DNA from: a virus
IMG/VR virus record: IMGVR_UViG_3300018420_000131
Span: 1 to 22,681 of that record
Direction: 5' to 3' (one strand)
Length of the DNA: 22,681 nt
Shown here: one piece after another, positions 8,211 to 10,207 of the stretch
Layout of the letters: each line of letters opens with the position of its first letter
Numbering within the stretch: the stretch's first letter is position 1
Translations under genes and position numbers: made by a program
Notes under the pieces: generated by a model
Seen by the model: the letters and a program-made list of their open reading frames with translations, nothing else
What the model was told of the DNA's origin: nothing
Databases searched by the model: none

Positions 8211-9062
8211 ATGACGAATAAAACAAATCCATTAGCAGGACATTTTAGACAACCTAAATTGTACATGAAATTACCTAGTGGAGGTTTGTTCAATACAGAC
8301 GAAGATCTAGATTTTCCAGAAAGCAAAGAAGTTGCCGTTTTTCCTATGACAGCAAAGGATGAAATCTTAATGAAGAATCCAGATGCATTGTTGAATGGTG
8401 AAGCAGTAGTACAGGTTATTAAGAGTTGTGTTCCTAGTGTATTAAAGCCACAAGAATTAACAAATATAGATGTAGATGCAATACTTATGGGTATTCAGTC
8501 TGCTACCTATGGTGACGAAATGGAAGTAACTGCAAAATGTAAAAATTGTGAGGACAAAGAACTAACAGGCACAACAAGTATACAAGACTCATTGGACCAA
8601 ATACAACCTTTAGAAGAAATTAATATTGCAGAATGGGAAGGGTTAAAAGTAGCACTAAGGCCTGTTAAATATAAAAGCACTATAGAAGCAGGACTTATAA
8701 ATTTCCAAACAACTAGAAGTTTACAGGGAATATCAGAGTTGCCTGACGATATGGACAAACTGCAAATATTCAACGAAACATTTAATAGAATTGCTGTTTT
8801 AAACTTTAACTTAATTGCAGACAGTATAGAAAAAATAATTATGCAGGAAGGAGAAGAAACTATTGAAGTGACTGATCGAGAACATATTATAGAGTTCTTA
8901 AATAACTGTGAAGCATCTATTGGAAAGAAAATAGAAGAACAAAGCAGTAAAATTTCCACAAATGGTATTAAAAAAGAAATACAATTCCTTTGTGAAGATT
9001 GTGAAGAAGTTACAGAAAGTACAATAGTATTAGATCCTGTAAATTTTTTCATGGCTTCCTAG
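8211..9062 (+). CDS. gp26: Baseplate hub assembly protein gp26
   Basis: This 283-residue protein matches the gp26 family of T4-like phages. Signature stretches are LYMKLPSGG (17-25) and VFPMTAKDEILMKNPDALLN (43-62). Two CxxC pairs, C110/C113 (CKNC) and C261/C264 (CEDC), suggest one zinc-binding site built from distant halves. T4 gp26 (208 aa) is needed for hub assembly but is hard to find in the finished baseplate, consistent with an assembly factor. The ATG has an AGGAG site 8 bases upstream and follows its own late promoter. The last codons include a run of A3T6C at 9041-9050, a strong -1 slippery sequence. Part of the translation probably continues into the gp51-like frame, giving a protein of about 359 residues. 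Confidence 0.85.
   Translation: MTNKTNPLAGHFRQPKLYMKLPSGGLFNTDEDLDFPESKEVAVFPMTAKDEILMKNPDALLNGEAVVQVIKSCVPSVLKPQELTNIDVDAILMGIQSATYGDEMEVTAKCKNCEDKELTGTTSIQDSLDQIQPLEEINIAEWEGLKVALRPVKYKSTIEAGLINFQTTRSLQGISELPDDMDKLQIFNETFNRIAVLNFNLIADSIEKIIMQEGEETIEVTDREHIIEFLNNCEASIGKKIEEQSSKISTNGIKKEIQFLCEDCEEVTESTIVLDPVNFFMAS
9041..9050 (+). promoter_or_regulatory. Candidate -1 ribosomal frameshift site (AAATTTTTTC)
   Basis: In the gp26 frame the codons are GTA AAT TTT TTC ATG. This holds two overlapping X-XXY-YYZ heptamers: A-AAT-TTT (9041-9047) and T-TTT-TTC (9044-9050). Slipping back one base at either moves ribosomes into the gp51-like frame, four codons before the gp26 stop. Short stems are possible downstream (GGCT 9053-9056 with AGCC 9067-9070; CTGAA with TTCAG shortly after), but none is strong. 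Confidence 0.72.
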
Positions 9063-9289
9063 CGACAGCCGAACCTGAAGAAATAGTTCAGTTCCTAGAG
9101 AAGTTAAAAACAGACAGATCGGCACTTTATAAGAACATTGTAGAATTAACAATATACAGTGAAGGCAAAGTTTCTTATACTGAAGCATGGAATATGTCTA
9201 CTGAAGAAAGGTCGTTATTTATAGAAGTGTTAAGCAACTACACCAAAGCAAAAAACGGCGATAGTTCTGAAAGCAACGAATACTTATAA
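9050..9289 (+). CDS. gp51: gp51-like hub assembly protein, made as a -1 frameshift extension of gp26
   Basis: In the frame one base behind gp26, an open frame runs from 9005 (after a TGA at 9002-9004) to the TAA at 9287-9289. It has no ATG, GTG or TTG until an ATG late in the frame that would leave only about 30 codons. Reading from the slip point gives 79 residues, HGFLATAEPEEIVQFLEKLK onward, including SYTEAWNMSTEERSLFIEVL. This looks like genuine helical protein and resembles the small gp51 proteins of marine T4-like phages, which lie between gp26 and a GIY-YIG ORF. The stop overlaps the next ATG (TAATG). The likely product is a gp26-gp51 fusion acting, like lambda GT, as chaperone for the tape measure. 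Similarity to gp51 is from memory and position; the missing start codon is directly visible. Confidence 0.7.
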   Translation, partial: HGFLATAEPEEIVQFLEKLKTDRSALYKNIVELTIYSEGKVSYTEAWNMSTEERSLFIEVLSNYTKAKNGDSSESNEYL

Positions 9290-9705
9290 TGTGGTTATAT
9301 AAACAAAAAGAAGTCACAGAATTACCAGAAGACTGTGAAGCATTTGTATATCTTATCACAAACAATACCAACAATAAAAAATATGTAGGTAAAAAACTTG
9401 CAAAGTTTAAAACCACAAAACCCCCTTTAAAAGGCAAAAAGAACAAACGGCGTGGTTATAAAGAATCAGACTGGCGTACTTATTGGGGTAGTAATGATTA
9501 CTTAAAAGAAGATGTAATTGAGTTAGGTGAAGACAATTTTACAAGAGAAATATTATATTTTTGTCCAAGTAGAGGTGTTGCCAGTTACTTGGAAGCCAAA
9601 GAACAATTTGATAGAGAAGTACTATTATCAGACGACTACTACAACGGAATTATCAACGTTAGAGTAGGCGGTTCAAAAATCCTTAAAGAAGCACTATCAG
9701 ACTGA
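9289..9705 (+). CDS. GIY-YIG nuclease-fold protein
   Basis: This 138-residue protein has the two hallmark strands of the GIY-YIG fold: FVYLI (residues 19-23, Y21 in the 'GIY' place) and KYVGKK (Y32, V33, G34 in the 'YIG' place). A basic stretch KGKKNKRRGYKESDWRTYWG, an FTREILYFC helix region and a glutamate-bearing helix (SYLEAKEQF) that could bind the metal follow. Such ORFs recur next to gp51 in marine T4-like phages, sometimes annotated as homing endonucleases. The fixed position and coupling (TAATG with the preceding frame) suggest a vertically kept gene and not a free mobile element. No DNA-binding tail like those of I-TevI is visible. Its substrate is unknown. It is the last gene before the non-coding block. 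Confidence 0.75.
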   Translation: MWLYKQKEVTELPEDCEAFVYLITNNTNNKKYVGKKLAKFKTTKPPLKGKKNKRRGYKESDWRTYWGSNDYLKEDVIELGEDNFTREILYFCPSRGVASYLEAKEQFDREVLLSDDYYNGIINVRVGGSKILKEALSD

Positions 9706-10182
9706 TAACTATTTGCTGATAAGAACTCATTATGGCCCAAACAGACACCAAGTCAAACTAACACAGGCACACATAGGATCATACACCGGCCCCAACCGAG
9801 GCAAATTAAATCGGGCTCCTTGACAATCCGTTAAACACGGTGCGGGACTCTGGAGATGTATGACGGCAAAGATACAAACACACGTTAAACAGTATTAAAA
9901 GGATGTAGGCTCTGAGAAAAAGCAACCTACAAGTTATGTAATTGAACTTACAAAGGTTACGTGGCTTCCGTGAGATTCGTGACGGTAGTGTATGGGGACA
10001 GAAGGCTCACCGGTTCCTAATAGCACCCGAAGTTAAGATGGCGATGGCATCACATGATGACACCATTCTCACCTTGTATAGGTGAGTTATGACTCCAACA
10101 TACATGATAACGGTATACTTAAAAAAACTTTCAAACAAATGAAAGAGTGAAGTGAAACGAAACGATTGAATGTAGTTTGAAA
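9706..10182 (+). ncRNA. Candidate large structured non-coding RNA region
   Basis: No ORF covers this 477-base stretch on either strand, which is exceptional in an otherwise packed window. Parts are clearly GC-richer than the flanks (about 50-55% at 9781-9840 and 9961-10020). Many stems can be drawn: CTCC (about 9817-9820) with GGAG near 9852; TGTAT/ATACA at about 9857-9876; GTAGG/CCTAC (9905-9930); AAGTT/AACTT (9931-9949); CCGT/ACGG (9968-9985); ATGGCATC with GATG..CCAT (about 10044-10066); CTCACCT/AGGTGAG (10068-10086); and CTTTC/GAAAG near 10128-10145. I found no tRNA, tmRNA, RNase P or group I/II intron core. Strand is assumed from the upstream late operon. It may instead be a DNA-level element such as a replication or recombination site. 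Confidence 0.5.
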
Positions 10183-10197
10183 AGGTCCGTAGGACCT
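10183..10197 (-). terminator. Hairpin terminator between convergent units
   Basis: AGGTCC (10183-10188) and GGACCT (10192-10197) form a 6-bp GC-rich stem with a 3-base loop. Read on the minus strand it begins 10 bases after the stop of the 267-aa gene and is followed by TTTTC, a short U-tract. In the plus direction it is followed by ATTTAA and could also stop the RNA block. Confidence 0.6.
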
Positions 10198-10207
10198 ATT
10201 TAATGCG

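Follow-up and report, generated by a model that had tools for sequence, protein, structure and literature searches.

The DNA analysed here, called the window throughout, is a virus record of 22,681 bases from a T4-like myovirus, in which genes for a portal, a prohead protease, an SbcC-like gp46 relative and baseplate components can be identified. Between a segE-like gene (9289–9705, + strand) and a convergent operon running from 10208 there is a gap, 9706–10200, without any listed ORF that reaches 50 aa; one of its neighbours ends at 9705 (+), and others start at 10203 or 10208. The GC content of 9706–10200 is 42.0%, as against 35.4% for the window, which places it in about the top 5% of 495-nt stretches. 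A little further upstream, a T4 baseplate-type ORF (8211–9062) overlaps with a second ORF, read in a different frame (FLATAEPEEIVQFLEKLKTDRS..., to 9289), after an ATTTTTT run near 9043–9049, which suggests a programmed frameshift within 8211–9289. The features assigned to the block and its upstream gene are as follows, helices being numbered as in the explicit model described in the next section.

9289–9705, + strand: segE-like gene immediately preceding the RNA; product a stand-alone GIY-YIG nuclease domain of 138 aa
9706–9765, + strand: leader, from the segE stop to the first conserved helix; GGCACA direct repeats abundant in relatives
9766–10197, + strand: structured noncoding RNA, conserved extent, assigned on relatives' identity, 65 pairs and G-U versus A-C
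9796–9814, + strand: 5′-domain hairpin (9796–9799 with 9811–9814), helix 1; double changes at 4 of 4 pairs
9828–9840, + strand: 5′-domain hairpin (9828–9831 with 9837–9840), helix 2
9871–9896, + strand: helix 3 (9871–9875 with 9892–9896)
9905–9930, + strand: hairpin A, near-invariant GGCnnTGAGAAAAAGCAACC, helix 4; its 20-mer pattern is in at least 120 IMG/VR contigs
9932–9966, + strand: long hairpin (9932–9942 with 9956–9966), helix 5; double changes at 10 of 11 pairs
9947–10037, + strand: pseudoknot 1 (loop 9947–9951 with 10032–10037), helix 6; double changes at 5 of 5 pairs, 100% paired
9970–10010, + strand: pseudoknot 2 (9970–9974 GTGAG with 10006–10010 CTCAC), helix 7; double changes at 4 of 5 pairs
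9983–10029, + strand: core helices 8 and 9 (9983–9991 with 10023–10029; 9994–9999 with 10013–10018)
10050–10061, + strand: repeat copy 1, TCACATGATGAC, identity block 10052–10061; preceded by ATGRC at 10037–10041
10068–10086, + strand: hairpin between the copies, CTCACCT-TGTAT-AGGTGAG; a hairpin of at least 7 bp in 38 of 38 relatives
10100–10111, + strand: repeat copy 2, ATACATGATAAC, identity block 10102–10111; preceded by ATGRC at 10088–10092
10129–10182, + strand: 3′ closing stem (10129–10136 with 10175–10182), helix 10; double changes at 7 of 8 pairs
10183–10197, + strand: 3′-terminal hairpin GGTCC-GTA-GGACC, without a U-run, helix 11; double changes at 4 of 5 counted pairs

Comparative evidence for a structured RNA

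Folding of the single sequence gives a stability not above that of shuffled sequence (z +0.33 on the + strand and −1.04 on the − strand), and it is therefore only the comparison of homologues that reveals structure. Homologous blocks, 71–88% identical over 300–500 nt, occur in IMG/VR relatives, and of the first 80 IMG/VR relatives of segE about 20 have such a block behind the gene; the alignment used here (A1) comprises 38 distinct homologues. From these, RNAalifold predicts 63 pairs, 39 of which show changes on both sides. An explicit model of 65 pairs in 11 helices, including two pseudoknots, has 98.5% of its cells able to pair across the 38 homologues, and 46 of its 65 pairs show double (compensatory) changes as compared with 24 in shuffles, while in a slid control, where one side is shifted by 1–3 columns, pairing falls to 36–44%. 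A caveat that applies to all these pair counts is that the structure was derived in part from the same alignment, so that they are biased towards the model, but the margin is large. Coupling analysis of the 38 homologues, made against a tree-based null of our own making (and thus resembling R-scape without being R-scape), recovers the same helices, the couplings of pseudoknot 1 being among the strongest. For pseudoknot 2, distant members have complementary TTGAT/GTCAA, CGTAT/GTACG and GTAAC/GTTAC, and in relatives the hairpin at 10068–10086 occurs in variants such as TTCACC/GGTGAA and TTCTCC/GGAGAA.

The 38 homologues contain 215 G-U cells and only 4 A-C cells, a ratio that would be reversed if the opposite strand were the functional one, and it is therefore the + strand that acts as RNA. 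What is needed to place the block among structured noncoding RNAs, namely compensatory changes beyond chance, a defined structure and restriction to one strand, is present, and there can be little doubt that 9706–10200 encodes a genuine family of structured + strand RNAs, with the proviso that transcription is inferred from the covariation and the G-U content, no expression data being available. Three parts can be recognised in the RNA: a 5′ hairpin domain, a core with two pseudoknots, and a 3′ module.

Two peculiarities of detail may be recorded here. In the leader region (9706–9780) and at the same place in relatives, GGCACA direct repeats show an extreme strand bias (in pooled related leaders GGCACA is observed 69 times where 2.1 are expected, and TGCC once where 18 are expected), and copies of AGACACCAAGTC are also often present. 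Loci L106, L116, L118, L126, L150 and L153 have AT-rich hairpin insertions between core helices, for example ACTTAATGTTAAGTCAAAGTAACATTAACTTG, which appear to be exchangeable peripheral stems.

An obvious alternative is that the block is a decayed protein gene. Nothing beyond the missing ORF speaks for this. Against it, there is no intact ORF at this place in the 38 relatives, no codon-like constraint is seen, and the structural covariation is strong; no reading frame is conserved across the 38, in the median homologue the 470-nt element contains no ATG ORF longer than 39 aa (32 aa in the window), and element lengths are not fixed to one value modulo 3. Such an origin is all but ruled out.

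The initial annotation, made without comparison to other sequences, had described the block as free of ORFs, richer in GC and dense in hairpins. The first two statements held; a density of hairpins judged by eye is no evidence in itself, given the z scores above, and it is the comparative data that carry the case. Two of the hairpins it listed, 9905–9930 and 10183–10197, held with support from compensatory changes, and a third, 10068–10086, held on the strength of a corresponding hairpin in that position in each of the 38 relatives, while its stem at 9931–9949 failed as a helix of its own, being the 5′ part of the 9932–9966 stem. Its description of 10183–10197 as terminator-like was not confirmed: there is no U-run, and a terminator scan found no canonical terminator on either strand. 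The covariation check it had suggested was run in the R-scape-like form described above, with the helices recovered, and the + strand covariation, together with the absence of a conserved frame, excludes a decayed gene with intact ORFs in relatives, which would have refuted its reading. The other reading it offered, a replication or recombination element, is disfavoured by the asymmetry of G-U over A-C.

Distribution and linkage to segE

Uncultured aquatic T4-like viruses share this RNA by the hundreds. At least 120 IMG/VR contigs contain the hairpin motif GGCWMTGAGAAAAAGCAACC by itself, and the non-redundant motif matches inspected have a common architecture of hairpin A, long stem, a TTCCG-X ... 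X′-CCG pseudoknot and a GGGGG/CCTCC stem. Searching with a covariance model of the core adds further segE loci, among them ones on contigs of 186 and 268 kb, and in the five long contigs checked the RNA is single-copy. A second, diverged core, “S2” (GTAGGTTGGGAAAGGTCAGAGCCC), occupies the same place in at least 17 segE loci that lack the first core, and is itself found in at least 120 IMG/VR contigs. Both cores share, as judged by eye, a 5′ domain CACC-UUGAGG-stem-UCAGAUUCU-GGUG and the 3′ repeat module, and it is likely that the several diverged cores belong to one modular superfamily, a conclusion resting on shared modules and position without a formal model. S2 proved too conserved for the covariation test, and its structure is without covariation support.

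Downstream of segE in L054, L061 and L062 there is a third, more diverged version having the same 5′ domain, which the core model matches only marginally (E 0.13). Another carrier, L230 (PBPT01000016.1), is a 335-kb contig in a Neomarinimicrobiota MAG bin that has both segE and an S2 RNA; it is probably a phage contig placed in the wrong bin.

When seven members covering the core types were compared by blastn with 50,697 named phages, only a 26-nt chance match resulted. The nearest named relative of segE (77%) is that of Methylophilales phage Melnitz, from which the RNA is absent, the exact core motif not being in the genome and the core model giving no match at its segE locus.

There are 203 non-redundant RNA loci, and 187 of these are testable for linkage, having either enough upstream DNA or a segE match. 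segE lies directly upstream on the same strand in 180 of the 187, the median distance from its stop to the core motif being 180–235 nt; it is divergent in one (L119), and in the six where none is nearby the fold and the repeats are retained. At L007 an insert separates segE from the RNA. Six segE homologues of isolated phages were fetched (two of Synechococcus, and one each of Sinorhizobium, Rhizobium, Variovorax and Flavobacterium); at the five annotated loci another gene follows closely with no gap, the sixth record being unannotated.

The segE product belongs to Pfam family PF19835, SegE_GIY-YIG (1.5e-32). An AlphaFold model of it (pLDDT 83) has as its best match the catalytic domain of I-TevI (prob 0.96, TMt 0.64), albeit with a Foldseek E of only 0.24. 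Conserved in the protein are the tyrosines and glycine of the GIY-YIG motif together with Glu102, Asn119 and an Arg; PMC2988022 describes what the Arg, Glu and Asn do in I-TevI. There is also a conserved basic stretch, KFKTTKPPLKGKKNKRR. T4 homing endonucleases possess a separate DNA-binding part (PMC2988022), which is absent from the 138-aa protein. Many phage records of segE homologues carry the product name “NAD synthetase”, which comes with PHROG 447; for a GIY-YIG family this is likely to be a propagated misannotation.

Linkage of this kind raises the possibility that the RNA is a cis-acting 3′ untranslated element of segE, acting in mRNA stability, attenuation or autoregulation of the nuclease. 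The upstream position of segE on the same strand, in nearly all testable loci and at the distance just given, is the evidence in favour. Against it are the six loci that keep fold and repeats without segE nearby, the one in which segE is divergent, the insert at L007, and the isolated phages in which segE was inspected and no such element seen; in addition, a pseudoknotted fold of 450 nt is far larger than known 3′ UTR controls. We regard this explanation as unlikely. Nor does the RNA qualify as a riboswitch or 5′ leader, the downstream gene in the window being convergent and the genes downstream of the RNA differing between loci.

A direct repeat that covaries by identity

Within the 3′ module, the copies at 10052–10061 and 10102–10111 lie about 50 nt apart, flanking a hairpin, and vary between phages, yet they stay alike: they are identical at 9 of 10 positions in all 38 sequences, which represent seven repeat types. 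The exception is the eighth position, which is G in copy 1 (10059) and A in copy 2 (10109), again in 38 of 38. The strongest coupling of the whole alignment is that of 10054 with 10104, where the two bases are always the same (A/A 22, G/G 11, T/T 5), with high ranks for other repeat columns too, so that the strongest covariation in this RNA is one of base identity rather than base pairing. The ATGRC upstream of each copy tracks as well, in 34 of 38. In S2, where examples of the repeat are ACATGAAG, ACATAATG, GCATAAAG, ACGTGAAG and GTATGAAG, the copies agree at the first six positions in 92 of 92 parsed loci, a count that leaves out 15 further, unparsed S2 loci; cross-pairs match at 80–100% at these positions. 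The remaining (“other”) set was scored by its longest shared word, and in 39 of 41 the two sides of the hairpin have an exact word of 7 nt or longer in common, as compared with 22% of mismatched pairs. The flanks of the copies differ: CTC precedes copy 1 and TCT copy 2, both in S2 and in most of the “other” set. These flanks, like the G/A position, have remained unhomogenised, and for this reason recombination or gene conversion is a poor explanation of the identity, while selection for one shared partner is a good one.

The same observations bear on the possibility that the block works at the DNA level, as a site of recombination or an origin of replication, with an initiator protein or recombination itself maintaining the identity of the direct repeats. 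The arrangement, in which two convergent operons enclose a hairpin flanked by direct repeats, would suit such an element, as would the fact that the strongest coupling is one of identity. Against it, the 215 G-U as opposed to 4 A-C cells indicate selection on the + strand as RNA, and under conversion the constant G/A and CTC/TCT differences would be lost as well; an element of this type is very unlikely.

Within the RNA no complement of the repeats was found, the best pairing being 7.08 nt for an RNA's own repeat and 7.08 nt for swapped ones. Antisense sites with full-length pairing in four long contigs (the second G003 repeat and G004 being left out) were no different from shuffled controls, and among 11 phage contigs, considered by gene family and intergenic context, no antisense target was conserved beyond what shuffled repeats gave. 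A phage target for the twin sites must be considered improbable, though it is not excluded, as the contigs are incomplete and a target of 8–10 nt could escape. Coding readings of the copies were rejected. In the window-like set copy 2 often resembles a tiny ATG..stop ORF after an SD-like GGAGAA, and this was dropped because the frame breaks in the window and several relatives and S2 has no ATG; ribosome bypass fails on the same two points, and the identity spans 7–10 nt rather than one codon.

Another possibility is that SegE and the RNA form one ribonucleoprotein, in which the RNA guides or controls the GIY-YIG nuclease, the twin repeats serving as the guide. The conserved segE-RNA cassette speaks for this, as does a protein consisting of the catalytic domain only, without a separate DNA-binding part and with the basic stretch noted above. 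Against it, the repeat columns couple to SegE residues no more than other RNA columns do (ranks 24–316 of 479 RNA columns), cyanophages and others encode SegE homologues of equal size without having the RNA, the RNA also occurs without segE nearby, and the repeats are constrained in sequence, unlike free guides. The idea is very unlikely, and the same must be said of the bolder reading that segE and the RNA constitute a new kind of phage ribonucleoprotein, with the large RNA supplying or gating target recognition for the GIY-YIG domain and the twinned, variable 10-nt sites serving as target readout, where both binding and target setting are inferred from the cassette linkage alone.

Known systems and a possible role

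In Rfam 15 the window has no match up to E=5, whether to group I or group II intron models or to any other; searches with 12 further loci gave no match up to E=1, with 10 more none relevant up to E=2, and with 21 additional loci none at the gathering score. Nor does it qualify as a tmRNA, one-piece or permuted, with a tRNA-like domain and a tag ORF, ARAGORN and Rfam both being negative. The RNA was not found in the literature searched, although large lists of candidate structured phage RNAs outside that literature may contain parts of it. The initial annotation had read the block as a new large RNA with the texture of GOLLD or ROOL, and had suggested the Rfam search. A large, pseudoknotted phage RNA without an Rfam match supports that reading, identity with GOLLD or ROOL is not borne out by sequence model, and the segE linkage and the direct repeat that covaries by identity are unusual parts lying beyond what was seen at that stage.

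GOLLD (RF01998) is likewise a large, ornate, modular phage RNA of unknown function from aquatic metagenomes (PMC12286853). It differs in being about 800 nt long, the present RNA does not match its Rfam covariance model, and neither a twin repeat module nor a link to segE is reported for it in the relevant sections of PMC12286853; the tRNA neighbourhood typical of GOLLD is also missing, an ARAGORN search of the window, 54 carrier loci and five long contigs having returned no tRNA. ROOL (RF03087) is another large pseudoknotted phage RNA of unknown function, but is about 660 nt long, whereas the RNA of the window has no Rfam match and is not beside a tRNA island. HEARO, the omega-RNA of IscB, is also a structured RNA tied to a homing-type endonuclease gene; here, however, the neighbour is GIY-YIG (PF19835) rather than HNH, the RNA lies downstream, there is no free guide segment and no Rfam HEARO match, and what is seen is an association of RNA and nuclease gene only, no binding having been shown. 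With T4 SegE and other free-standing GIY-YIG homing endonucleases (PMC2988022) the neighbouring gene shares the Pfam family SegE_GIY-YIG, but the protein of the window is essentially the catalytic domain alone, and no structured RNA lies behind the segE homologues of the isolated phages inspected.

Since GOLLD and ROOL form homo-oligomers (PMC12286853), an RNA-only assembly might be envisaged here too, repeats and loops making contacts between RNA copies to give a multimer. The RNA is large, pseudoknotted and phage-borne, and is not known to require a protein. However, in most phages the repeats are not self-complementary (CTTG, CGAG, ACATGAA), and as they have no complement in the molecule, repeat pairing does not explain their identity. 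An assembly of this sort is unlikely, although contacts between copies through other loops remain conceivable.

The explanation we prefer, which seems to us about as likely to be right as to be wrong and whose mechanism is inferred, is that of a large, structured, trans-acting phage noncoding RNA with twin docking sites for one partner. The RNA would be transcribed together with segE, forming the 3′ portion of that unit, and would probably then be released; the core would present the 3′ module with its two sites, one and the same trans partner would dock on both copies, and protection of the 3′ end would fall to the terminal hairpin. A given partner base would form a weaker G-U at copy 1 and a stronger A-U at copy 2, and for a pairing partner copy 2 would be the stronger site, so that the partner would be either captured bivalently or handed from copy 1 on to copy 2. 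That the copies track base by base without an internal complement makes the partner most likely another nucleic acid, and we infer that a host or otherwise unsequenced RNA or DNA is a better candidate than a sequence-specific protein. Action in trans is favoured by the lack of any fixed downstream gene together with the six loci without segE. Against this model, it is possible that the near-constant link to segE reflects action on segE or together with the SegE protein, and there are no expression data and no partner was found in 11 phage genomes.

What the analysis adds is a family of large structured RNAs, abundant among uncultured aquatic T4-like viruses, absent from Rfam 15 and tied to one gene. 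Covariation by identity of two direct copies that have no internal partner is a rare and readable sign of a partner in trans, and discovery of that partner would give a large phage RNA a testable role of the kind still missing for GOLLD and ROOL.
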